Made by a program: the position numbers and the translations under genes. From positions 682,001 to 746,000 of the forward strand of contig NZ_CP014546.1 of NCBI RefSeq assembly GCF_001579805.1: DNA of 64,000 nucleotides, written 5' to 3'. The notes below the pieces were generated by a model. That model saw only the letters and a program-made list of their open reading frames with translations. It was not told the DNA's origin and searched no databases. The DNA comes from Pseudomonas azotoformans (GTDB lineage: Bacteria > Pseudomonadota > Gammaproteobacteria > Pseudomonadales > Pseudomonadaceae). Below are positions 35,225-48,479 of the stretch, piece by piece (position 1 is the stretch's first letter; every line of letters begins with the position of its first letter).

Positions 35225-36295
35225 ATGGCGGAGAGTCAACAGTCGTTCTCGTACGGAGCGCCTATCGCGAGGGATCTGGAGGCACTGATTTCGAGCAAAC
35301 GGTACTCCACTTATCTCAAAAAAGCAGGTCACAAAGATGACTTTGCTTTCGAGCTCTATCTTTACAACGCCAGATTGGCCAAGGCATTCCTCTTTCCACT
35401 GCATGTGACTGAAGTTGTGGTGCGCAATGCAATCGACGAGATTCTGTGCACGCAGTACACGAACCAATGGCACCTGGATGCGGCTTTCCGGTCGATGATC
35501 ACACCGGAAAGCTTAGCAACCTTGAAAAAGGCAATCGACCGGGCGTCGAAGGGTAGCGCTCCTGCGCAAAAGGATGATGTGGTGTCTCGGCTTACGTTTG
35601 ACTTCTGGTCCAACCTATTCCGAGCATCCTATGACCGACCACTGTGGCAGACCAACATCAAGACATTGATGCCGCTCAACCCCTCAATCACTAGAGCTTC
35701 GCTTCAGACTCTGATGATGAGTATCAACAATTTCCGAAATCGCATAGCTCACCATGAACCGATTTTCGCGCTAGACGTCTCGTTGATGCACAAAGAAATC
35801 CTGCAAGTCGTGGGGTATCGATCAGCAACAGCCGAAAACTGGATCAAGTGTCACTCAACTGTGCATAAAGTTATGCGATCCAGACCGTCGTCAGGGCTAG
35901 GCGCTGGGCCAACGTTAGCGTCCCTCTGCGATAGTGACTTTTCGACCTTACCGATCACTACAAAATTGTCAGACCTAAAAGCTAAGCAACCGCAGACCAA
36001 GTTCATTGTTTGCTTGGATGACAAGTCTGGGGAGACGGTCGGCATACTCAAAGCTGCTGAGCTAGGTGAGTTTATGTTCTCTTGCGCAGACGAAAGCGGG
36101 CTGATCGATCTAACCGAGCACAGTTTGGGTGACGTATGCGCCCATACCGATGCTGCGCGCGCCTATGCAAAAGTCGACGGTGCCGAGGGCGCTATCGCCC
36201 TCACCCATATTTTTCGGGGCTTTGTCTGCTATGCCCTCGTGCTGGAAGCTGGGAAGCTCAAAGGCGTGATTTCAAAACCCCACCGGAAGTATTGA
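35225..36295 (+). CDS. Abi family (HEPN-type) protein with CBS-like C-terminal region
   Basis: The N-terminal ~225 residues look like an Abi_2/COG4823 abortive-infection protein: LYNARLAKAFLFPLHVTEVVVRNAIDE, then FWSNLFRASYDRPLWQ, and FRNRIAHHEPIF. The last carries an Rx4H motif (Arg171-Asn172...His176) typical of HEPN ribonucleases. The C-terminal ~100 residues are unusual. FIVCLDDKSGETVGILKAAELG (about 260-281) and YALVLEAGKLKGVISKP (about 336-352) each resemble the end of a CBS repeat, suggesting a degenerate CBS pair that could sense a nucleotide. The gene stands alone in an AT-richer stretch, next to an S24 repressor. Function as a phage-defence toxin is inferred from the family. The ATG at 35225 lacks a strong ribosome site. 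Confidence 0.75.
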   Translation: MAESQQSFSYGAPIARDLEALISSKRYSTYLKKAGHKDDFAFELYLYNARLAKAFLFPLHVTEVVVRNAIDEILCTQYTNQWHLDAAFRSMITPESLATLKKAIDRASKGSAPAQKDDVVSRLTFDFWSNLFRASYDRPLWQTNIKTLMPLNPSITRASLQTLMMSINNFRNRIAHHEPIFALDVSLMHKEILQVVGYRSATAENWIKCHSTVHKVMRSRPSSGLGAGPTLASLCDSDFSTLPITTKLSDLKAKQPQTKFIVCLDDKSGETVGILKAAELGEFMFSCADESGLIDLTEHSLGDVCAHTDAARAYAKVDGAEGAIALTHIFRGFVCYALVLEAGKLKGVISKPHRKY

Positions 36296-36742: not shown

Positions 36743-37139
36743 TCGAATCCGGGCGACTAAACCCGATCACTGAATAAGCAGTGACGATCCGGAGCCTAGT
36801 CACCCATCCCCGCTGGCGCAATGCGCTGGGGATTCTCTCGGAAACGTCCTGCAAATGAAAAGGATGTGCCCTGCTGGCCCTTGAAAATCAGGTCATTCCC
36901 GCCTTTGGGTTCCCCCCACACACCTGTGTTCCCAGGTGACACTCACCTCGCTCTCCTACACAAAATGAACACCAAGAAAACTTTCTTACACGCATATCTA
37001 AACAAGTCGTTTAAACCCCAATTCTTCGCGGCCTCTCCTCGATGGCCCAAAACCTGCTTATTGCACGCCGTACAATAAAACCGGCCCAAGCCGGACCACC
37101 ACCCACATCCACTGCGCAACGCAGTACGGGGGAATGCTG
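36743..37139. other. Intergenic stretch before the permease gene
   Basis: These ~400 bases contain no frame I would call. There are small hairpins (CACCTG/CAGGTG at 36921-36938; CCGGC/GCCGG at 37081-37094) but no clear promoter. It marks the boundary between the AT-richer repressor-Abi segment and the catabolic cluster. Confidence 0.5.
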
Positions 37140-38540
37140 ATGTCCACAACACCGCTTCACTCTTCCAACCATGGCTTGGCGCGATCGCTTAAAGAGCGCC
37201 ATGTGATGTTGATCGCAATCGGCGGAATTATCGGGGCCGGTTTGTTTTTGGGGTCGGGCAAGGCGATTGCCACGGCGGGGCCGGCGTTGTTGCTGGCGTA
37301 TGCGTTGTGTGGGGGGATGGTTTATCTGATTGCGCGGGCGCTGGGGGAGTTGTCGTTGTATCGGCCCAGCAGTGGGTCGTTTGCGACCTATGCGGAAGAG
37401 TTTTTGGGGCCGCGAGTGGCGTTTATCACGGGGTGGTCGTATTGGATGATCTGGATTCTGGTGGGGGTGCTGGAGGTGACCGGGATCGGGGTGTTGATGA
37501 AGTATTGGTTTCCGGAGTTGCCGCAGTGGATTCCGGCCTTGGTCACTGTAGGCGTGTTGATGGTGATCAATCTGTTTGCGGTGAAGACCTTCGGCGAGGT
37601 GGAGTTCTGGCTGGCGTTGATCAAGGTGTTGACGATTGTCGGGCTGATTGGGGCGGGGTTGGTGATTCTGCTGTTTGGGCTGGAGACGTCGGCGCAGACG
37701 ACACCCTCGGTAGCCAATCTCTGGCAGCACGGTGGGTTTTTTCCGAATGGCTGGAGTGGGTTTTGGTTTGCGGTGCCTGTCGCCGCTTTTACCTTTGCCG
37801 GGATTGAGGTGGTCGGTCTGGTCGCGGCGGAAACGGCGGAGCCGCAGCGCACGTTGCCACGGGCGATCAATAGCATTTTGTGGCGCATGGCGATTTTTTA
37901 CCTGGGGTCGACGGCGGTGATCATGGCGCTGTATCCGTGGAATCAGATCGACACGTCGCAAAGCCCGTTTGTGATGGTGTTCGACAGTATCGGGCTGGGG
38001 ATGGCGGCTGGGCTGATCAATTTTGTGGTGATCAGCGCGTTGGCGTCTTCCTGTAATACCGGGCTGTTTGCCACCAGCCGAATGTTATTTGCACTGTCAC
38101 ATATTCAGCAGGCGCCGCGTCAGTTGCGGGTGTTGAGCCCGCGCCAGGTACCGGCTCGGTGCTTGATGGTGTCCACTGCGATTTTGCTGGTGGGGGTGCT
38201 GCTTAACTACCTGATTCCGGAGCGCATTTTCAGCCTGTTGATCACCGGCATTCTGGGCCTGTTGATTTGGGTATGGGTGGTGATTATCACCGCGCATATG
38301 GCTTATCGCCGCAAGGTGCAGCGCAATGGCTTGGAGCAGGTGCATTACCGTTTGCCCTGGCCCAAGGTCAGCAGTGTCTTGGTGCTGGGTTACCTGGGTG
38401 TGCTGACGGTGTTGGTGATCCGCGACCCGGAAACGCGGGCGGCGTTTTATGTTGCGGCGGCGTGGTTCGGGTTGTTGATGCTGGTGTATCCGAAACGTGC
38501 GGCGCTGAAGAAGGGGGTGGGTGATGCCTGGAATGCTTGA
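37140..38540 (+). CDS. APC-family amino acid permease
   Basis: This 466-residue, twelve-span transporter belongs to the amino acid/proton symporter group (AAT: GabP, ProY, LysP type). Motifs include LKERHVMLIAIGGIIGAGLFLGSGKAI, FTGWSYWM-like FITGWSYWMIWI, and FAGIEVVGLVAAETAEPQRTLPRAINSI. Two ATGs exist; 37140 is chosen because GGGGGA sits seven bases upstream, while 37134 is too close. The stop overlaps the start of the aminotransferase gene, so uptake and transamination of one substrate are probably coupled. I infer a beta-amino acid from the next gene; the sequence alone does not show the substrate. Confidence 0.88.
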   Translation: MSTTPLHSSNHGLARSLKERHVMLIAIGGIIGAGLFLGSGKAIATAGPALLLAYALCGGMVYLIARALGELSLYRPSSGSFATYAEEFLGPRVAFITGWSYWMIWILVGVLEVTGIGVLMKYWFPELPQWIPALVTVGVLMVINLFAVKTFGEVEFWLALIKVLTIVGLIGAGLVILLFGLETSAQTTPSVANLWQHGGFFPNGWSGFWFAVPVAAFTFAGIEVVGLVAAETAEPQRTLPRAINSILWRMAIFYLGSTAVIMALYPWNQIDTSQSPFVMVFDSIGLGMAAGLINFVVISALASSCNTGLFATSRMLFALSHIQQAPRQLRVLSPRQVPARCLMVSTAILLVGVLLNYLIPERIFSLLITGILGLLIWVWVVIITAHMAYRRKVQRNGLEQVHYRLPWPKVSSVLVLGYLGVLTVLVIRDPETRAAFYVAAAWFGLLMLVYPKRAALKKGVGDAWNA

Positions 38541-39795
38541 GCTGGAACATTGCATTCAACGGTACATCCAGGCCAATCCCAACAGTGCACGTCAACTGGA
38601 TTGGGCGGCGCGGGTGATGCCAGGGGGTAACACCCGCTCGGTGCTGTTTTACGAGCCGTTTCCGTTGGTGATGACGGGCGGCAATGGGTGCTTTCTCGAC
38701 GATCTGGACGGGCACCGTTATGTCGACTTTTTGGCCGAATACACGGCGGCGTTGTATGGGCACTCTCATCCGGTGATCATCCATGCGCTGTCAGAAGCGA
38801 TGGCGAACGGGTTGAACCTGAGCGCACACACAGAACTGGAAGCGCGACTGGCGACGCTGATTGTGGAACGCTTCAGTTGCATTGAGCAGGTGCGCTTTAC
38901 CAACTCTGGCACCGAGGCGAATCTGCTCGCACTGGCGGCGGCAAAAGCCTACACGGGGCGCAACGGCGTCATCGCGTTCAACGGCGGTTACCATGGTGGC
39001 GTGTTGAGTTTTGCCGGGACGAGCACAGCGATGAATGTGCCGCATCGGGTGTACCTGGCTGACTATAACGACCTGGAGAGCGTCGAGCGTTTGCTGCGTG
39101 AGCATGTCGACATCTCGGCCATCCTGGTAGAGCCGATGCTCGGTGCAGGCGGGTGTATTTGCGCAGAGCCGGGTTTTCTCGAAGGCCTAAGGGAAAGGAG
39201 CCAAGCCCACGGTTCACTGCTGATCTTCGACGAAGTGATGACCTCGCGCCTTGGCCCCGGTGGCCTGCAGGAAAAACTCGGCATCACGCCCGACCTGATC
39301 ACCCTGGGCAAATACATCGGCGGCGGCATGCCGTGCGGTGTCCTCGGTGGGCGGCGGGACATCATGGGGCAGTTCGACCCGCGTCACGGGAGCCTCTCCC
39401 ATGCGGGCACGTTCAACAACAATGTGCTGACCATGGCGGCGGGTATCGCCGGATTGGAGCAGGTGTATACCCGCGAAGCCGCATCGGACCTGAATGCTCG
39501 AGGCAACAAGCTACGCGAACAGCTCAATCAAGCACTGGCCCCCATGGCGATGCAATTTACCGGACAAGGTTCGGTGATGAATCTGCATCCCACGGGCTTA
39601 CTCATCCGTCGGCCCTCGGACATTCCAACGGAACGAAACGACCTACGCGACCTGTTCTTCTTTCACCTGCTCGAATCTGGCATCTATAGCGCGCGACGCG
39701 GGTTGTTTGCACTGAGCTTGCCACTGACTGAGCGCGAACTAAGCAGGCTGATATCGGCCACACAGGCATTTGTCGAGCGCTACGGAGGAAGCTAA
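38524..39795 (+). CDS. Class III aminotransferase, beta-amino acid (beta-phenylalanine) transaminase type
   Basis: This 423-residue PLP enzyme has the fold of glutamate-1-semialdehyde aminomutase. The PLP Lys is residue 263 (TLGKYIGGGMPCG) and the Asp holding the pyridine nitrogen is residue 236 (IFDEVMTSRLGPGG). The segments NTRSVLFYEPFPL (Arg38), RFTNSGTEANLLAL, GTFNNNVLTMAAG, AMQFTGQGSVMNLH and ARRGLFALSLPLT closely resemble what I recall of Variovorax beta-phenylalanine aminotransferase. There, the Arg of RSVLFY and a late Arg bind substrate carboxylate and 2-oxoglutarate. It would convert a beta-amino acid to a beta-keto acid. The ATG at 38524 follows AGGGGG and overlaps the permease by 17 bases. 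Confidence 0.82.
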   Translation: MPGMLELEHCIQRYIQANPNSARQLDWAARVMPGGNTRSVLFYEPFPLVMTGGNGCFLDDLDGHRYVDFLAEYTAALYGHSHPVIIHALSEAMANGLNLSAHTELEARLATLIVERFSCIEQVRFTNSGTEANLLALAAAKAYTGRNGVIAFNGGYHGGVLSFAGTSTAMNVPHRVYLADYNDLESVERLLREHVDISAILVEPMLGAGGCICAEPGFLEGLRERSQAHGSLLIFDEVMTSRLGPGGLQEKLGITPDLITLGKYIGGGMPCGVLGGRRDIMGQFDPRHGSLSHAGTFNNNVLTMAAGIAGLEQVYTREAASDLNARGNKLREQLNQALAPMAMQFTGQGSVMNLHPTGLLIRRPSDIPTERNDLRDLFFFHLLESGIYSARRGLFALSLPLTERELSRLISATQAFVERYGGS

Positions 39796-39869
39796 CCCCG
39801 CCCCGGCAGAGCGACAGCGAATCGGTGAACCGCTATCCTTTCGCCGTCGCTCAACCGGAACCCACAACA

Positions 39870-40598
39870 ATGACCAGCAAAACCGCAAACCCTCGGGGCA
39901 GGCGCAAGAAGACCGCTGGCGAAGACGCGAAAAGCCCATTGAACAGGGACACCATCATCGCCGCCGCGCTGGCGCTGATCGATCGCGATGGCCTGGACAA
40001 ATGCAGCCTGCGCAACCTGGCCAACAGCCTTGGGGTGTACCCGACGGCGATCTATTGGTACGTCTCGTCGCGGGAGTTGTTGTTGAGCGAAGTGCTGGCC
40101 AACGTCCTGCAAGATGTCGCCCCGCCCCCTCAGGAACGTTGGCAGGACTACCTGCGTGCGGCGATGGTCAACTGCCATGACGCCGTGCACCAGCACCCGA
40201 ATATCGCGCCGTTGCTGGGGTCGCAATTGGTCTCCAACTCCAGCACTGACTTCAAGTTGGTCGAAGGCGTGTTGGCGGCTCTGCAACAGGCGGGTTTCAG
40301 CGGCCCTTCCCTGGTCGGTGCCTACAATACGTTCATTGCCGCGCTTGCCGGTTTCACCACGTTGGAGTACGCGCCATTGCCGGAAAACACCGAGGCATGG
40401 CAGCACCAGGTGCAGGAAAACCTGCGTGCCGTCGACGCCGAAAAACACCCCACTCTCGCGCAGAATATGGACCAGTTGAGCAATCGCGGTTTCAGCCTGC
40501 GCTGGCAAAACGGGGTGGATGCGGCGCTCGATGAGAGCTTCACGTTTTACGTCGATACCCTCCTCTGCGGCCTGGAAACCCAAGCCTTGCGCTGCTGA
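39870..40598 (+). CDS. TetR family transcriptional regulator
   Basis: The 242-residue protein has an N-terminal TetR helix-turn-helix (RDTIIAAALALIDRDGLDKCSLRNLANSLGVYPTAIYWYVSSRELLLSEV) and a TetR_C-type ligand domain. The start at 39870 gives the basic leader TSKTANPRGRRKK; a GTG 45 bases upstream is open but has no ribosome site. It lies between the permease-aminotransferase pair and the ligase-thiolase genes, all on the same strand, so it most likely represses this catabolic cluster and answers to a pathway acyl compound. The C-terminal half of the DNA-binding domain is of the tetracycline-repressor type (YPTAIYWYV). Confidence 0.88.
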   Translation: MTSKTANPRGRRKKTAGEDAKSPLNRDTIIAAALALIDRDGLDKCSLRNLANSLGVYPTAIYWYVSSRELLLSEVLANVLQDVAPPPQERWQDYLRAAMVNCHDAVHQHPNIAPLLGSQLVSNSSTDFKLVEGVLAALQQAGFSGPSLVGAYNTFIAALAGFTTLEYAPLPENTEAWQHQVQENLRAVDAEKHPTLAQNMDQLSNRGFSLRWQNGVDAALDESFTFYVDTLLCGLETQALRC

Positions 40599-40716
40599 AA
40601 ATTCGTACAACAAAACCAGAAACGCCACTAATTGTACGATGTACAGCTTATCGCTACAGTCCGCCACGCAAGAGCACCCATGACTCGAATAACAAAAACG
40701 TCAGAGGTCTTTTATC

Positions 40717-42714
40717 GTGGCAACTGCATTCGACAACGTGGTCCAGGGCCAACTGCTCTGGCTGCCCTTCCCTGAACATCTTCAACACGCCCGACTCACG
40801 CATTATCTGGATTGGCTGAGGCGCGAGCGCGGGCTCAGGTTTGCCGACTATCAAGACCTGTGGCAGTGGTCGGTCGATAAACCGGAAGCCTTCTGGCAGT
40901 CGATCTGGGATCACTATCAGGTGCAGGCCAGCAGCCCCCATCAGGCAGTGCTGGGTGATCGAGCAATGCCCGGTGCGCAGTGGTTTCCCGGCGCACGCTT
41001 GAACTTTGCCGAGCATATTCTGCGCAATGAGCAGGACGGCGACGCGCTGCTCTACTTGAATGAAACCACCGGCCTGCAAGGCCTGCCCTGGAGTGAGTTC
41101 GTCGACCAGGTGCGCAGGCTGGCGACCTATCTACGTGAGTCGGGCGTCGTGCCGGGTGACCGGGTTGTGGCTTACCTGCCGAACATCCCCGAGGCGATGA
41201 TCGCGCTGTGTGCCTGTGCTTGCATCGGAGCTGTCTGGGCCAGTTGCTCACCGGATTTCGGCGCGGAGGGCGTGTTGGATCGGGTGCGGCAATTGTCGCC
41301 CAAGGTGCTGTTGGCGGTGGATGGGTATCGCTATGGCGGCAGGGTGTTTGACCGACGAGAACAGGTACGACACATCGCCCGCGAGCTGAAGAGTATCGAG
41401 CATGTCATTGTGCTGCCAGCGCTGTTTCCCGATGACACGCTGATGTTCGCAAACGCCATCGACTGGCCTACGTTGCAACAACGTCCTACGGTTTCCGCAG
41501 CCGACTTCCATTGCGAGCAACTACCTTTCGATCATCCGCTTTGGGTGCTGTTTTCTTCCGGCACGACCGGCTTGCCCAAAGCCATCGTGCAGAGCCATGG
41601 CGGCATTCTGCTGGAGCAGTTTAAGGCCCTGCATCTGCACCTGGATTTTCGCCCCGGTGATGCCGCATTCATTTTCACCACCACAGGCTGGATGATGTGG
41701 AACACCTTGTTCAGCGCGTTGCTCTGCGGGGTGCGGCCGGTGCTGTACGACGGCCATCCCACTTGGCCGAATATCGATACGCTGTGGCACATTCTGCAAG
41801 ACAGTCGCGCCAGTTTTTTTGGCACCAGCCCAACCTATATCGACTTGATGAAGCGTCACGACGTGGTGCCTCGAGAGCGCTTTGACCTGGGCGCGCTACG
41901 CACTGTCATGCCCGTAGGCTCGCCGGTTTCGCCACAGTGCAACGCCTGGTTTTATCGTAACCTCAAGGCCGATGTGTGGGTGACCACGGGCAGCGGTGGC
42001 ACGGATATTTGCACGGGACTGGTGAGTGGCGTGCCCACGCTGGCGGTGTATGCCGGGGAGATCCAGGCGCGAGCCTTGGGGGTGGATGCCCATGCGTTTG
42101 ATGAACAGGGCCGGGCGGTGATTGATCAAGTGGGCGAGTTGGTGGTGACGTCACCGATGCCGTCGATGCCGGTGTATTTCTGGAATGATCCAGAGGATGA
42201 GCGTTACCGCGACAGCTATTTCCAACCCTGGCCTGGCGTGTGGCGTCATGGGGATTTTTTCCTGCTCAATGCGCGCGGAGGCTGCCAGGTGCTCGGGCGT
42301 TCGGATGCGACGCTGAATCGCTTTGGGGTGCGGATCGGCACTGCTGAGATCTACCGGGCGCTGGAGCCGATAGAGGAAATCGACGATGCACTGATCGTGA
42401 ATCTGGATCTGCCCGAGGGTGGTTTCTTCATGCCGCTGTTTATCCAACTGCGCTCTGGTGCCGTGCTGGACGAAGCATTGCGCCAACGCGTGTGTGAATG
42501 TTTGCGGCAGGCTTGTACGCCCCGGCATGTGCCGGACCAGATCATCGCAGTGCCGCTGATTCCGCTGACGCTTACCGGTAAAAAAATGGAAGTGCCGGTG
42601 CGCCGAATCCTGATGGGCCACGATCCGCAAAGCGTCGCCAACCCCAGCGCCATGCGCGACCCACAGGCGCTGGCGTTTTTTATCGAATACGCCAACCGCA
42701 GGTGCCAATCATGA
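40717..42714 (+). CDS. Acetoacetyl-CoA synthetase-type beta-ketoacyl-CoA ligase
   Basis: This adenylate-forming ligase (665 residues) is in the acetoacetyl-CoA synthetase group. It activates acetoacetate or a related beta-keto acid to its CoA thioester with ATP. It shows an ACS N-terminal domain, the phosphate loop LFSSGTTGLPKAIVQSHGG, TTTGWMMWNTLFSALL, GSGGTDICTGLVSG and the late catalytic Lys in LTGKKMEVPVRRIL. The GTG at 40717 has AGAGGT upstream. Its last bases overlap the thiolase start (ATGA). In this cluster it would take the beta-keto acid made by the aminotransferase; acetoacetate from another source is the alternative. Confidence 0.88.
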   Translation: MATAFDNVVQGQLLWLPFPEHLQHARLTHYLDWLRRERGLRFADYQDLWQWSVDKPEAFWQSIWDHYQVQASSPHQAVLGDRAMPGAQWFPGARLNFAEHILRNEQDGDALLYLNETTGLQGLPWSEFVDQVRRLATYLRESGVVPGDRVVAYLPNIPEAMIALCACACIGAVWASCSPDFGAEGVLDRVRQLSPKVLLAVDGYRYGGRVFDRREQVRHIARELKSIEHVIVLPALFPDDTLMFANAIDWPTLQQRPTVSAADFHCEQLPFDHPLWVLFSSGTTGLPKAIVQSHGGILLEQFKALHLHLDFRPGDAAFIFTTTGWMMWNTLFSALLCGVRPVLYDGHPTWPNIDTLWHILQDSRASFFGTSPTYIDLMKRHDVVPRERFDLGALRTVMPVGSPVSPQCNAWFYRNLKADVWVTTGSGGTDICTGLVSGVPTLAVYAGEIQARALGVDAHAFDEQGRAVIDQVGELVVTSPMPSMPVYFWNDPEDERYRDSYFQPWPGVWRHGDFFLLNARGGCQVLGRSDATLNRFGVRIGTAEIYRALEPIEEIDDALIVNLDLPEGGFFMPLFIQLRSGAVLDEALRQRVCECLRQACTPRHVPDQIIAVPLIPLTLTGKKMEVPVRRILMGHDPQSVANPSAMRDPQALAFFIEYANRRCQS

Positions 42715-43889
42715 AGGGCAAAGCCTTTGTTGTCGGCGCTTATGAACATCCCACACGTCATGCGGTGGATCGCTCTCTCGCGCAACTGCATGCGGATGTG
42801 GCCCGAGGCGCCTTGGCGGATGCGGGGCTTAGCCTCAGTGATGTGGACGGTTACTTCTGCGCGGGTGACGTACCCGGTTGGGACGCACCCGGTGTAGGAC
42901 CTTTCTCCATGGTCGAATACCTAGGCATACAACCCCGGCACCTGGAGACTACAGAAAGCTGGGGCTCTTCCTACCTTCATCACGTCGCCCAGGCCACCCG
43001 CGCCATTGCCGACGGGCTTTGCACCGTGGCCCTGATCACCCAGGCCGGCCGCCCACGCGCCGAGCGCCAGCGACCGGATACCAGTCACCTCGATCAACCG
43101 CAAACCACCTGCGAAGCGCCCTTTGAAATGCCCTACGGCGCCGCCGTTACCAACCTCTACGCGATGTGCGCCATGCGCCATCAGTACGAACACGGCACCA
43201 CCGCCGAGCAACTGGCCTGGATCAAAGTCGCGGCGTCGCACCACGCCCAACACAATCCTCAGGCGATGTTGCGCAAGGTCGTGACGGTGGAGGATGTGTT
43301 GAACTCGCCGCTGATCGCAGCGCCCTTGCGACGGCTGGATTGCTGCGTGATCAGCGATGGCGGTGGCGCGCTGGTGGTGGTGCATCCGTCCATCGCGCGC
43401 GCCCTCAAGCGGCCGTTGATTACACCGATTGGCGCCGGTTATTCGATCAGCCATTTGAACGGCGGCTATTTCGACCTGCTGTCTTCCGGTGCGGTGAAGT
43501 CGGGTGCCGATGCGTTCGCCGAAGCACGGCTCAAACCCGGGGATATCCGCTACGCCTCGCTGTACGACAGCTTCACCATCACTGTCCTGATCCAGCTGGA
43601 AAACCTCGGTTTCTGCGCACCTGGTCAGGGCGGCGCCTTTGTTGCCGACGGCAAATTGATCAGCGGCGTGGGTCCGTTGGCAATCAACACCGACGGCGGT
43701 GGGCTGTGCAACAACCATCCTGGCAATCGCGGCGGAATGGCCCGGCTGATAGAAGCGGTGCGGCAACTCCGTGGAGAAGCTCACCCGGCGGTGCAACGGC
43801 CCGACTGCGCGCTGGCCCTGGCCCACGGCACCGGGGGTTTGCTGGGCTCACGGCACGGCAGCGCGACGCTTATTCTGGAGCGCCTTTGA
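42711..43889 (+). CDS. Thiolase-like protein (SCP-x/BbsB type)
   Basis: The 392-residue protein has the two-half thiolase fold of the SCP-x/lipid-transfer group. The usual nucleophilic Cys position near residue 85 reads ETTESWGSSYLHHVAQA, without Cys. The HDCF-type motif reads YDSFTITVLIQLENLGFC, and the C-terminal motif GGGLCNNHPGNRGGM keeps Cys and His. This matches a subgroup that works with a DUF35 partner, as in the BbsAB benzoylsuccinyl-CoA thiolase. Thiolytic cleavage of a beta-ketoacyl-CoA is a reasonable role in this cluster but the altered active site leaves doubt. It is coupled to both neighbours (ATGA overlap; one base to the next start). Confidence 0.83.
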   Translation: MKGKAFVVGAYEHPTRHAVDRSLAQLHADVARGALADAGLSLSDVDGYFCAGDVPGWDAPGVGPFSMVEYLGIQPRHLETTESWGSSYLHHVAQATRAIADGLCTVALITQAGRPRAERQRPDTSHLDQPQTTCEAPFEMPYGAAVTNLYAMCAMRHQYEHGTTAEQLAWIKVAASHHAQHNPQAMLRKVVTVEDVLNSPLIAAPLRRLDCCVISDGGGALVVVHPSIARALKRPLITPIGAGYSISHLNGGYFDLLSSGAVKSGADAFAEARLKPGDIRYASLYDSFTITVLIQLENLGFCAPGQGGAFVADGKLISGVGPLAINTDGGGLCNNHPGNRGGMARLIEAVRQLRGEAHPAVQRPDCALALAHGTGGLLGSRHGSATLILERL

Positions 43890-43890
43890 T

Positions 43891-44271
43891 ATGCACCTGA
43901 CCTCACCGCACATCACCCCCGAAAGCGCACCGTTCTGGGAGGCCGCCAACCGCGAACAGCTACTGCTGCGCCGCTGCCTCGACACCGGCAAGCCGTATTT
44001 CTACCCCCGCGACCACAGCCCGTTTACTGGCAGCGCCCACACCGATTGGATCTTCGCCAGCGGCAACGCCACCTTGTACAGCTTCAGCTACAGCGGGCGG
44101 AACCATGAGACGTATTGCATCGCCTACGTAACGCTCGATGAAGGGCCAACAATATTATCGGTTGTCCAGTGCGACGAGCCACGACAGTTGCGCATCGGCC
44201 AACGGCTCAAAGTGGCCTTTGCACCGACGCCGAACGGGCAAAAAACACCTGTGTTCACATTGTCTCCTTAG
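43891..44271 (+). CDS. OB-fold / DUF35 protein, thiolase partner
   Basis: This 126-residue protein has a short N-terminal arm and an OB fold of the DUF35 family (FWEAANREQLLLRRC, YPRDHSPFTGS, TDWIFASGNATLYSFSYSGR). The zinc-ribbon cysteines normal for DUF35 (CxxC...CxxC) are absent here except one: the region reads RRCLDTGKPYFYPRDHSPF. Such proteins form complexes with SCP-x-type thiolases and are needed for their activity. I start it at the ATG at 43891, one base after the thiolase stop; the frame is open upstream inside the thiolase gene. Confidence 0.82.
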   Translation: MHLTSPHITPESAPFWEAANREQLLLRRCLDTGKPYFYPRDHSPFTGSAHTDWIFASGNATLYSFSYSGRNHETYCIAYVTLDEGPTILSVVQCDEPRQLRIGQRLKVAFAPTPNGQKTPVFTLSP

Positions 44272-44381: not shown

Positions 44382-45014
44382 ATGAGCACTGCAACCTACA
44401 ACCGCCTCAACAAAGACGACGCCATTGTTCTGCTGGTCGACCACCAGACCGGCCTGATTTCCCTGGTGCAGGACTTCTCGCCCAACGAATTCAAGAACAA
44501 CGTGCTGGCCCTGGCCGACCTGGCCAAGTTCTTCAACCTACCGACCATCCTCACCACCAGCTTCGAGCAAGGCCCGAACGGCCCGCTGGTGCCAGAATTG
44601 AAAGAGATGTTCCCGGACGCGCCGTACATCGCCCGCCCAGGCCAGATCAACGCATGGGACAACGAAGACTTCGTCAAGGCGATCAAGGCCACCGGCCGTA
44701 AGCAGATCATCATTGCCGGCGTGGTCACGGATGTGTGCGTAGCGTTCCCGACCTTGTCGGCGCTGGCGGAAGGGTTTGAGGTGTTTGTGGTGACCGATGC
44801 ATCGGGCACGTTCAATACCACGGTGCAGCAGGCGGCGTGGAGCCGGATGACGCAAGCCGGGGCACAACTGATGAACTGGTTCTCGGTGGCGTGTGAGTTG
44901 CACCGTGACTGGCGCAACGATATCGAAGGCCTGGGAAACCTTTTGTCCCAGCGCATTCCTAACTATCGCAACTTGATGAATGGTTACTCGGCGTTGACGG
45001 CGCGTAAGGACTAA
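44382..45014 (+). CDS. ycaC: YcaC-like isochorismatase-family hydrolase
   Basis: This 210-residue cysteine hydrolase belongs to the isochorismatase superfamily and is close to E. coli YcaC. It has the catalytic Asp in VLLVDHQTGLI, a conserved region PYIARPGQINAWDNEDF, and the catalytic Cys in GVVTDVCVAFPTLSALAEGFEVFVVTDASGT. The physiological substrate of YcaC is unknown. It is transcribed separately from the DUF35 gene, with a 110-base spacer and AAAAAGGA before the ATG, and ends in its own strong terminator. Confidence 0.88.
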   Translation: MSTATYNRLNKDDAIVLLVDHQTGLISLVQDFSPNEFKNNVLALADLAKFFNLPTILTTSFEQGPNGPLVPELKEMFPDAPYIARPGQINAWDNEDFVKAIKATGRKQIIIAGVVTDVCVAFPTLSALAEGFEVFVVTDASGTFNTTVQQAAWSRMTQAGAQLMNWFSVACELHRDWRNDIEGLGNLLSQRIPNYRNLMNGYSALTARKD

Positions 45015-45110: not shown

Positions 45111-46273
<1,163 letters not shown>

Positions 46274-46401
46274 TTGACACCTCGATCTGGCGAGCATTCT
46301 CGCCTAAATGGGTGTCCGGTTTCATTAGACCACTACAATGTGACCGCGCCGCCTCACCACTAAAGTCCTTCGCTTATTTCGAGCCTCAAGGAAGGACGCT
46401 A

Positions 46402-47447: not shown

Positions 47448-48479
47448 TTAACCCGCCAGCTCCCGCTCGATCTGCTCGATGCTTGGCAGGCTGGTTCGCA
47501 GCTCTGCGGGCAACGACTCCACCAGTTGATATTCCGCCACGCCAATCGGTCGGTTGTTATCGCGCAACGCATATTCGGCGACGACTTCGTTCTTGCTCTT
47601 GCACAACAGCAGGCCGATGGTGGGCCCATCTTGTGGATGTTTAAGCTGGGCATCGACGGCAGCCAGATAAAAGCTCAGCTTCCCCAGATGCTCGGGTTTG
47701 AACTTGCCGGCTTTCAGTTCGATGACCACGTAGCAGCGTAGCTTCACGTGATAGAACAGCAGGTCGACAAAGAACTCATCGCCTCCGACATCCAGCAGTA
47801 CTTGCTGGCCGACAAAGGCAAAACCGGCGCCCAGCTCCAACAAAAAGTCGGTGACGTGCTTGATCAAGGCGTTTTCTATGTCGCGCTCCTGCGCGTCCAG
47901 GGCCAGGCTGAGGAAGTCAAAACGGTAAGGGTCTTTCAGCGACTCACGCGCCAGGTCGGATTGCGGCTTGGGCAGGTGGGTCTCGAAGTTGCTGACGGCC
48001 TTGCCACTGCGCTCCAGCAGGCGGTTTTCGATTTGCATCACCAGCGAGTTACGCGACCAGTTGTTTTCAATTGCCTGGGTGATGTACCAGCGACGAGTTT
48101 CGGGGCCGGGGAGTTTGTCGAGCAACACCACATTATGGCCCCAAGGCAATTGTGCAGCAGCCTGTTGCACAAATTCAGAACTGGGCCACGCCTCGGCAAA
48201 AGCCCGCATGTACTTGAGATTACGCGGTGAAAAACCCTTCATTCGTGGAAAGGCCGCACGCAAATCCTGGGCAAGTCGATCTATGACTTTGCTGCCCCAG
48301 CCCTGCTCCGCCTGGCGGGTCAAAATGTCGTGGCCAATCTGCCAATAGAGCAGCACCAATTCCCGATTCACCGCCAGTGTTGCGCGCTGCTGCGCCGCAT
48401 GAATACGGCCTTTCAGGTCGGTCAGCCAGTCACTGTAGCCCGCCGGTGGTGTGGTCAAGCCGATACAGGGTTCGCTCAT
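47448..48479 (-). CDS. PD-(D/E)XK nuclease family protein (YhcG/DUF1016)
   Basis: The 343-residue protein has the DUF1016 N-terminal domain (LVLLYWQIGHDILTRQAEQGWGSKVIDRLAQDL, then FSPRNLKYMRAFAEAWP, LPWGHNVVLLDKL) and a C-terminal PD-(D/E)XK nuclease. Asp239 (FFVDLLFYH), Glu254 and Lys256 (VVIELKAGKF) supply the catalytic triad. YhcG relatives are found with restriction or toxin loci and with mobile elements. No partner methylase or antitoxin is beside it. It converges with the lipoprotein gene, 15 bases apart. Confidence 0.88.
   Translation of the reverse strand: MSEPCIGLTTPPAGYSDWLTDLKGRIHAAQQRATLAVNRELVLLYWQIGHDILTRQAEQGWGSKVIDRLAQDLRAAFPRMKGFSPRNLKYMRAFAEAWPSSEFVQQAAAQLPWGHNVVLLDKLPGPETRRWYITQAIENNWSRNSLVMQIENRLLERSGKAVSNFETHLPKPQSDLARESLKDPYRFDFLSLALDAQERDIENALIKHVTDFLLELGAGFAFVGQQVLLDVGGDEFFVDLLFYHVKLRCYVVIELKAGKFKPEHLGKLSFYLAAVDAQLKHPQDGPTIGLLLCKSKNEVVAEYALRDNNRPIGVAEYQLVESLPAELRTSLPSIEQIERELAG

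Follow-up and report, generated by a model that had tools for sequence, protein, structure and literature searches.

The stretch of the Pseudomonas azotoformans genome analysed here (the window, 64,000 nucleotides) raises the question of whether six neighbouring genes form one catabolic pathway and, if so, for which substrate. We read them as a catabolic cassette under TetR control whose substrate is a beta-amino acid, most likely an aromatic one such as (S)-beta-phenylalanine or a relative, and give this reading a probability of roughly 0.6; the substrate, the direction of the reactions and the chemistry of the cleavage step are what we infer.

Gene order, occurrence and proposed regulation of the cassette

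As an earlier note made from the letters alone had claimed, six genes lie here on the forward strand; all are intact. They encode an APC-family amino acid permease (37134..38540, with an alternative start at 37140; 372.7 bits to PF00324/AA_permease), a class III aminotransferase (AT, 38524..39795, with a GTG start at 38521; Aminotran_3, 188 bits), a TetR-family protein that we propose as the regulator (39825..40598), an acetoacetate-CoA-ligase-type enzyme (AACS, 40717..42714; AMP-binding and ACAS_N domains), a thiolase-fold protein that lacks the nucleophilic Cys (THIO, 42711..43889, with an in-frame GTG at 42702; Thiolase_C_1) and its DUF35/ChsH2-type OB-fold partner subunit (43891..44271). 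The overlap that the note had seen between the permease and AT genes is 17 bp, at the permease 3' end. A search across Pseudomonas, which the note had suggested, detected the AT in 4 of 398 sampled genomes, the genome of the window (G000) included, and the cassette is thus rare in the genus; all four carriers have the six genes in identical order. Compared with the three other cassettes, every gene is under purifying selection (dN/dS 0.04-0.22), which together with the retained order argues that the arrangement is not due to chance. The adjoining YcaC-type isochorismatase-like hydrolase gene (44382..45014, forward strand; NF041461, 401.7 bits against a cut-off of 310) was considered as a seventh member, but it adjoins the cassette in just three of the four genomes and the 19-kb region of G366 (L114) contains nothing that matches it; it probably lies outside the cassette core.

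Outside the cassette, the two halves of the block mostly occur apart. Neighbours were counted by tblastn. At 19 other AT loci, examined in windows of 7-19 kb, no AACS of more than 23% identity was found, and a THIO-like gene (39%) was present at one. Conversely, at 79 THIO loci outside Pseudomonas, an AACS-like gene lies within 6 kb at one (L086, 29%) and an AT-like gene at one (L052, 33%), and four of the eight Pseudomonas genomes with THIO lack the AT. The earlier note had named such separation in most genomes as grounds for giving up its proposal; the halves are indeed separate at these loci, yet they are together in all four carriers. The union of AT, ligase and THIO therefore looks like a Pseudomonas innovation and not a widespread operon.

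The presence of a TetR regulator, also claimed earlier, was borne out by the domains TetR_N (PF00440) and TetR_C_1 (PF02909). A palindrome, TTGTAC-N3-GTACAA, which is newly described here, precedes both transcription units in all four cassettes (eight of eight sites, with at most one mismatch). In the window, the putative operators are TTGCACGCCGTACAA upstream of the permease gene (37061..37075; one mismatch to TTGTACNNNGTACAA) and TTGTACGATGTACAG upstream of the AACS gene (40632..40646; one mismatch); the AACS-side copy is perfect in three of the four cassettes. TetR homologues (38-47%) were found at 6 of the 19 other AT loci, directly beside the AT at five, and the palindrome is present at four of these six as against none of the 13 without a TetR homologue. 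Two loci at which a TetR gene stands beside a VpAT-clade AT (L143 and L146) have a different palindrome, with four mismatches. Genome-wide, the number of copies (at most one mismatch) was close to that of a backwards-pattern control (7 vs 5, 4 vs 3 and 6 vs 3), so the case for the palindrome rests on position and not on number. Copies outside the cassette in G000, G219 and G366 were considered as further regulon members and rejected: of 11 such copies, nine were inspected (5/5 in G000, 2/2 in G219 and 2/4 in G366), and seven of these lie inside reading frames, while the remaining two represent a single site that G000 and G219 share, located before a sensor-like gene or at its start. Neither G000 nor G366 has a copy (at most one mismatch) at its ben genes. 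Given the eight of eight promoters and the pattern at other AT loci, both halves of the cassette probably answer to one TetR protein, which would control the two transcription units by binding the two palindromes.

Aminotransferase, ligase and permease

The best match of the AT among solved structures is 4ao9, the beta-phenylalanine aminotransferase of Variovorax paradoxus (VpAT; E 5.1e-137), the very enzyme to which the earlier note had likened it, and the segments RSVLFY, TNSGTEANL, GTFNNNV and RRG...SLPLT that it quoted are all present. Aligning the two proteins, the first check it had proposed, placed R39, V41, E73 and Y74 in register with R41, V43, E75 and Y76, which constitute the aromatic beta-transaminase motif as described in PMC9850050. 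Among 18 aligned sequences, R39, E73, K264 and R393 are invariant and V41 is found in 17, whereas position 74 is Tyr in nine and Phe in the other nine. In a tree of 30 sequences, the AT falls in a 100/100 branch of 23 rows that includes the VpAT orthologue of G900 (L146; 829 bits to 4ao9), and the genome's own HemL-like row falls outside it, although the tree is midpoint-rooted and the HemL row drew a long-branch warning from the program. By sequence the AT is thus assigned to the VpAT clade. A glutamate-1-semialdehyde aminomutase, the identity that would have counted against the note's proposal, was rejected both on the tree and on the TIGR00713 HemL score (272.8 against a cut-off of 527.3). 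The enzyme would move the beta-amino group of its substrate to 2-oxoglutarate or pyruvate, leaving a beta-keto acid.

The ligase was correctly recognized as an acetoacetyl-CoA-synthetase type: it clears the NCBIfam equivalog for acetoacetate--CoA ligase, TIGR01217, with 782.8 bits (cut-off 520.9), matches the solved structure 4wd1 (E 1.1e-206) and is 61-63% identical to proteins named AACS from several phyla. Its residue 330 is Thr, whereas 96% of the 81 other AACS compared carry Phe there, a difference that hints at another acyl group and may reflect a larger acyl pocket. We propose that it turns the beta-keto acid at once into its CoA thioester, so that the acid would not be lost by decarboxylation. 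The permease would import the beta-amino acid; none of the 23 NCBIfam models listed for it reaches its cut-off, and the top-ranking one is a D-Ser/D-Ala/Gly transporter model.

The Cys-less thiolase-fold protein and its partner

The earlier note had called THIO a BbsB-like thiolase, and here it was not upheld. Numbering from the GTG at 42702, the position of the nucleophilic Cys is Gly (G88) in an alignment to 7yvy, leaving a BbsB-like active site unsupported, and the BbsB equivalog NF053628 scores 134.7 bits against a cut-off of 750. No NCBIfam equivalog is passed, but at the subfamily level NF006010, "thiolase domain-containing protein", accepts the protein with 661.8 bits (cut-off 462). In all 92 aligned sequences, the window protein among them, G88, Y288 and H339 are retained, the last being the GHP-type histidine, here within NHP. 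One residue after the Gly position, 12 of the 92 homologues have Cys, and the window protein has Ser. An AlphaFold model of THIO (14 sequences) had a pLDDT of 46 and was set aside. The DUF35 partner was confirmed by its zf-ChsH2 and OB_ChsH2_C domains (PF12172, PF01796) beside the THIO gene, and of the 79 THIO loci outside Pseudomonas, 78 likewise have a DUF35 match no more than 6 kb away.

The neighbours of THIO elsewhere imply that it handles a beta-ketoacyl-CoA. The order enoyl-CoA hydratase (ECH), ligase, SDR, THIO, DUF35 recurs in two genera, THIO-DUF35 also adjoins a 3-oxoacid CoA-transferase gene, and FadB/J-type neighbours occur at some loci, but beta-oxidation-type neighbours are absent at many of the 79. 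HyuB lies within 6 kb of THIO in 10 of the 79 loci, and a link to hydantoinase B, as in acetophenone carboxylase, was entertained. It was dropped after two of these loci were scanned, because an opposite-strand gene (an FAD monooxygenase at L036, a molybdopterin oxidase at L047) intervenes, with an asparaginase gene next.

The THIO/DUF35 complex would release acetyl-CoA from the beta-ketoacyl-CoA and leave an acid or acyl-CoA of shorter chain, which from beta-phenylalanine would be benzoate or benzoyl-CoA. Since THIO lacks the thiolase nucleophile, cleavage is probably non-covalent, with acid-base catalysis via Y288 and H339. Water may replace CoA as the attacking group; THIO/DUF35 would then be a retro-Claisen hydrolase in a complete aerobic pathway for an aromatic beta-amino acid, yielding acetyl-CoA and free benzoate for the ben pathway. 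This last proposal is speculative, and we would sooner bet against it than for it. If it is true, the thiolase/DUF35 fold would have hydrolysis as a third type of reaction, in addition to thiolysis and retro-aldol cleavage, and this chemistry would extend to a family present in several proteobacterial groups.

A downstream benzoate pathway is suggested by adjacency in one genome. The cassette of G366 abuts benABCD, the ends of its DUF35 gene and of benD being 2 bp apart, and the four proteins pass the BenA, BenB, BenC and BenD equivalogs. That adjacency is the one link left: benA is not enriched in carriers (3/4 at 1e-180, against 59/99 in the genus). BoxB had no match in any of the four carriers.

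Alternative readings and known systems

The most serious alternative is an aliphatic substrate (3-aminobutyrate, beta-leucine or similar), from which the AT would form acetoacetate or a homologue, the AACS acetoacetyl-CoA, and THIO/DUF35 two acetyl-CoA or acetyl-CoA and a branched acyl unit. That the ligase passes an acetoacetate--CoA ligase equivalog and resembles named AACS fits this, as does the cassette of G219, whose genome has no BenA match at 1e-180; VpAT-type enzymes also accept aliphatic beta-amino acids, and a VpAT relative, VboTA, deaminates beta-homoalanine and beta-leucine, as described in PMC9850050. However, a dedicated Cys-less enzyme should not be required to cleave acetoacetyl-CoA, a further AACS (41% identical) is already encoded in G000, the change to Thr at 330 may point to a larger acyl pocket, and benABCD lies next to the cassette of G366. 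We regard an aliphatic substrate as possible but doubtful. Still less probable is that the halves serve two functions, with the AT and permease obtaining nitrogen from a beta-amino acid while AACS-THIO-DUF35 would handle an acid of ketone-body type that has nothing to do with it: their separation outside the cassette fits such a division, but the shared order and the same palindrome before both units in all four carriers make it improbable.

The cleavage step itself has a competing explanation, that THIO/DUF35 is a retro-aldolase like Sal or Ltp2 acting on a beta-hydroxyacyl-CoA, formed by an unseen reduction or by a ligase that activates a beta-hydroxy acid. Two aldolases, CtSal (9myr) and TcLtp2 (6ok1), rank second and third among the solved matches of THIO, which shares with them the Gly in place of the Cys nucleophile and the Tyr (Y288) of the YDxF/Y motif; the Cys-less relatives of known chemistry covered in PMC12329534 are aldolases on beta-hydroxyacyl-CoA. 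The second catalytic residue differs, however, with Ser290 in place of Cys304, which CtSal requires (C304S had no detectable activity; PMC12329534), and H339 where Ltp2 has Tyr344 and Sal Gln352. The cassette has no reductase or hydratase gene, and THIO neighbours elsewhere include 3-hydroxyacyl-CoA-type dehydrogenases and the 3-oxoacid CoA-transferase, so that retro-aldol cleavage appears unlikely. The aromatic beta-amino acid cassette remains our preferred reading, and the earlier inference of a single pathway survives in its beta-type AT, AACS-type ligase, conserved order and shared putative operators, while its BbsB-like thiolase site does not.

Among known systems, the steroid aldolases Ltp2/ChsH2 and Sal/Shy have in common with THIO a thiolase fold without the Cys nucleophile, the YDxF/Y Tyr and a DUF35 partner, but in THIO the third motif residue is Ser, the GHP position is occupied by His, and some homologous loci have beta-oxidation-type neighbours. 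The benzoylsuccinyl-CoA thiolase BbsAB likewise pairs thiolase-fold and DUF35 subunits and has a proposed aryl-CoA product; its motif is HDAF, that of THIO YDSF. THIO draws attention to a Cys-less thiolase branch that is widespread and whose members carry the database names "acetyl-CoA acetyltransferase" or "thiolase". The beta-valine pathway of Pseudomonas sp. SBV1 (BvaA/BvaB) is also a CoA-dependent beta-amino acid route in Pseudomonas, but, as described in PMC4619459, it opens with the ligase, whose substrate is the beta-amino acid itself, and continues with a CoA-dependent ammonia lyase, with no transaminase step.

VpAT and VboTA share with the AT the clade, the aromatic beta-amino acid motif and the PLP lysine, and at the VpAT orthologue's locus in G900 (L146) a TetR homologue (47%) stands alongside, as in the cassette; unlike the cassette, the VpAT-clade loci L115, L143 and L146 have no AACS, THIO or DUF35 match. 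The Aromatoleum acetophenone route (apcABCDE-bal) similarly needs a CoA ligase for benzoylacetate and then cleavage of benzoylacetyl-CoA (PMC4729919), the likeness to Bal being by description. There the beta-keto acid arises by carboxylation of acetophenone, whereas in the cassette it would arise by transamination, and the thiolase that the same source calls "so far unknown" would have its counterpart in the THIO/DUF35 pair. In the account of PMC6150868, known beta-phenylalanine degraders are followed only as far as the beta-keto acid or acetophenone, and what becomes of this keto acid in bacteria that transaminate beta-phenylalanine is called uncertain, with loss as acetophenone; the cassette provides a full candidate route for that acid, comprising a ligase, a cleaving complex and a regulator.

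Conservation and putative operators of the cassette

The earlier note had claimed six same-strand genes for a single beta-amino acid pathway, and domain and family scans place them on the + strand at 37134-44271 of the window (G000:C1:682001-746000, the genome G000 being one contig, C1, of 6.86 Mb). The first 17 bp of the aminotransferase gene (AT) are shared with the end of the permease gene, and the TetR gene, 3' of AT, is separated by a 118-bp gap from the acetoacetate-CoA-ligase-type gene (AACS); the AACS end and the start of the thiolase-like gene (THIO) overlap by four bases, and the THIO stop and DUF35 start are one base apart. Two transcription units, permease-AT-TetR and AACS-THIO-DUF35, are likely. 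Just upstream, a lower-GC stretch contains an Abi-like gene (35225-36295; PF07751, 33.9 versus 25.6 bits). A YhcG/DUF1016 PDDEXK nuclease-like gene lies downstream (47448-48479), and the G219 cassette has a homologue on its downstream side, too. Two overlapping ORFs on the - strand (45111-46297), by eye an IS3-type transposase-like pair, separate the YcaC gene from the gene that follows; in G219 (L112) this pair is absent and the flanking ORFs are direct neighbours.

AT was found at 1e-80 in 4 of 398 genus genomes, own included (the others are G206, G219, and G366), and all four have the six genes in the same order; the Pseudomonas edaphica locus L022 appears to be the same record as G206 and was counted once. 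Relative to the three other cassettes, dN/dS of the six core genes is 0.04-0.22, THIO being lowest at 0.04-0.07. Further afield, AT was found at 1e-125 in 12 of 250 genomes of the family of G768, and at 1e-90 in 8 of 398 of a phylum sample (own and G768 included). From these hits, 19 outside loci belonging to 18 genomes were read, each in a window of between 7 and 19 kb. Within these windows AACS above 23% identity was found at none of the 19, and THIO- and DUF35-like genes at one (L118; 39% and 27%, about 6 kb away), whereas a TetR homologue (38-47%) was present at six, directly beside AT in five and 3 kb away in L121. AT and TetR thus look like the older pair, which AACS-THIO-DUF35 would have joined in Pseudomonas. 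THIO occurs at 1e-100 in eight of the 398 genus genomes, namely the four carriers and four others without AT.

The window promoters upstream of the permease and AACS contain TTGCACGCCGTACAA and TTGTACGATGTACAG, respectively, and TTGTAC-N3-GTACAA occurs with at most one mismatch in both promoters of all four cassettes (8/8 sites, five perfect). In G366, the most diverged cassette (proteins 69-85% identical), both palindromes are perfect, and that genome has no other perfect copy. The window holds four matches with at most two mismatches versus 1.0 expected, and 2 of 100 shuffles reach four, so the strength of the palindrome lies in its place and conservation. At each of the 19 outside loci, the 400 bases preceding the AT match were searched for it: it was perfect in L117 and had one mismatch in L139 and L142, all three with a TetR homologue directly beside AT, and the remaining 16 had at least four mismatches; in L121 a one-mismatch palindrome lies upstream of the TetR gene. 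It is therefore present at four of the six outside loci with a TetR homologue versus none of the 13 without. Two loci of the clade of VpAT, the Variovorax paradoxus beta-phenylalanine aminotransferase, also have TetR beside AT (L143 and L146) and carry a different palindrome, TTGAGCACTGATCAA, before AT, which may serve that TetR branch as its operator. The four Pseudomonas THIO loci without AT have no palindrome with fewer than three mismatches in 19 kb. The putative operators would, judged by sequence, tie AT and AACS-THIO-DUF35 to one regulator. In the genome-wide search, which covered the own genome, G219, and G366, an identical one-mismatch palindrome also turned up either ahead of a sensor-like gene or at its start, in the own genome (L154, 2841-2855) and in G219 (L155, 3242-3256).

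Proposed formation and activation of a beta-keto acid

The proposed likeness of AT to VpAT was borne out. Its best solved match is beta-phenylalanine aminotransferase 4ao9 (E 5.1e-137), followed by the beta-transaminases 2yku and 6iz9 at about 1e-135, and named aminomutases appear only from 1e-64 on. The aromatic beta-transaminase motif is given in PMC9850050 as R41, V43, E75, and Y76, to which R39, V41, E73, and Y74 of the window AT correspond in the printed alignment with 4ao9; of the 18 sequences aligned, all have R39 and E73 and 17 have V41, and position 74 is Tyr in nine and Phe in nine. A 30-sequence tree places the window AT with the three other cassette ATs (100/100) within a 23-row beta-AT branch (100/100), the VpAT orthologue being that of G900 (829 bits to 4ao9). 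The own genome's gene resembling HemL, the glutamate-1-semialdehyde aminomutase, is 38% identical to AT and falls outside that branch, although flagged as a long branch. As VpAT relatives are described as accepting both aliphatic and aromatic beta-amino acids (PMC9850050), the AT clade does not fix the substrate.

AACS is, as had been claimed, of the acetoacetyl-CoA-synthetase type, scoring 782.8 against TIGR01217 (acetoacetate--CoA ligase; cut-off 520.9) and matching the solved acetoacetate-CoA ligase 4wd1 at E 1.1e-206; a second AACS elsewhere in the genome is 41% identical. Forty-five positions set 38 cassette-type ligases apart from 81 other AACS (61-63% identical). One is T330, the residue that follows the TGWMMWN motif; Phe stands there in 96% of the 81 others and in 4wd1, Trp in the own paralogue, and Thr or Ser in three relatives of intermediate identity. 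In acetyl-CoA synthetase the corresponding segment lines the acyl pocket, and T330 in place of Phe would make room there.

Probable substrate and product

The neighbours of the THIO family speak for a beta-ketoacyl-CoA as substrate. The order enoyl-CoA hydratase, ADP-forming CoA ligase, SDR dehydrogenase, THIO, DUF35 is common to Marinobacterium nitratireducens (L023) and the AT-lacking Pseudomonas genome G134 (L164), although in L164 only the hydratase of the first three passes an NCBIfam cut-off. In G304, also Pseudomonas without AT (L167, 8003-10982), a fused 3-oxoacid CoA-transferase A/B gene (the subunit A model passes its cut-off, that of subunit B does not) follows THIO-DUF35 by 5 bp, and is perhaps another way of activating a beta-keto acid for the same pair. 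A FadB/J-type gene stands divergent beside the pair in G267 and G290, and after it in a Variovorax (L079). Among the best 80 of at least 583 confirmed stretches, 79 lie outside Pseudomonas (the other is the P. edaphica locus), and within 6 kb of THIO these 79 have DUF35 in 78, SDR in 12, FadB/J-type genes in two, acyl-CoA dehydrogenase in nine, and ADP- and AMP-forming ligases in nine and ten; many are thus without any beta-oxidation-type neighbour. A class III extradiol dioxygenase (498 versus 299 bits) and a formaldehyde dehydrogenase (749 versus 637), on the other strand near THIO in L023, fit aromatic acids. Separately, G467 (L163, 1919-7600) has a run of genes made up of DUF35, a THIO relative (39%), and what by eye look like a CoA ligase and a FadB/J-type gene; an AT (50%) lies roughly 6 kb away. 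Relatives of THIO (P0137, 82%) and AACS (P0277, 72%), each listed with a longest contig of 30,610 bases, possibly form a pair outside the known cassettes.

In G366, benDCBA is convergent with the cassette, 2 bp after it, and BenA, BenB, BenC, and BenD all pass equivalog cut-offs. A benABCD-like set (58-73% identical) lies elsewhere in the own genome and G206, with BenA below its cut-off (737 and 741 bits). The best BenA match in G219 is 496 bits, in a region with relatives of BenA, BenB, and BenC at 38-46% and none of BenD; our guess is an anthranilate-type enzyme. As BenA-like genes occur in 59 of 99 genus genomes at 1e-180 (46 over cut-off), only the G366 adjacency counts. The four carriers gave no match to BoxB, which belongs to the aerobic benzoyl-CoA route, in a search without a positive control since none of 14 control genomes exceeded the cut-off. 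If the substrate is beta-phenylalanine, the cells could therefore make better use of free benzoate, a product consistent with hydrolytic release or with thiolysis followed by a thioesterase step.

The cassette is real, conserved, and probably a co-regulated catabolic one. Its best reading is beta-amino acid degradation, to which we give a probability of roughly 0.6, an aromatic substrate being likelier than an aliphatic one. Two papers bear on the later steps: the fate of the beta-keto acid is called uncertain, with acetophenone reported (PMC6150868), and in Aromatoleum a benzoylacetate-CoA ligase is described and its thiolase is "so far unknown" (PMC4729919). Among open-licence PMC papers, searched by title and opening lines of the abstract, we found neither an operon of this composition nor a Cys-less thiolase that works with DUF35 on beta-ketoacyl-CoA. 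The parts are of known kinds; what is new is their combination, the putative dual operator, and the proposed Cys-less cleaving subunit.

The thiolase-like protein and its known relatives

The chemistry of the proposed cleavage by THIO/DUF35 is the most interesting point. The suggestion of a thiolase like BbsB, the benzoylsuccinyl-CoA thiolase subunit, was not supported: THIO scores 134.7 against NF053628 (cut-off 750) and passes subfamily model NF006010 only. In the profile alignment, G88 (numbered from the GTG start at 42702) stands opposite the Cys of 7yvy that we take to be the thiolase nucleophile, H339 is the His of GHP, and YDSF takes the place of the HDAF motif found in 7yvy and BbsB. 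All 92 sequences of an alignment share G88, Y288, and H339; position 290 is Ser in 88 and Ala in four, and position 89 is Cys in 12 and Ser in the window protein. The cassette-clade DUF35 (43891-44271) seems, by eye, to be without most of the zinc-ribbon cysteines kept by other DUF35 partners, such as that of L064.

The retro-aldolases TcLtp2 and CtSal, which have DUF35 partners as well, are marked by loss of the Cys nucleophile and by Tyr in YDxF/Y (PMC12329534), and THIO resembles them in both. However, the THIO family has Ser where Sal needs Cys304, and His where Ltp2 needs Tyr344. With Gly at the nucleophile position as well, THIO is, judged by sequence, neither an ordinary thiolase nor Sal or Ltp2.
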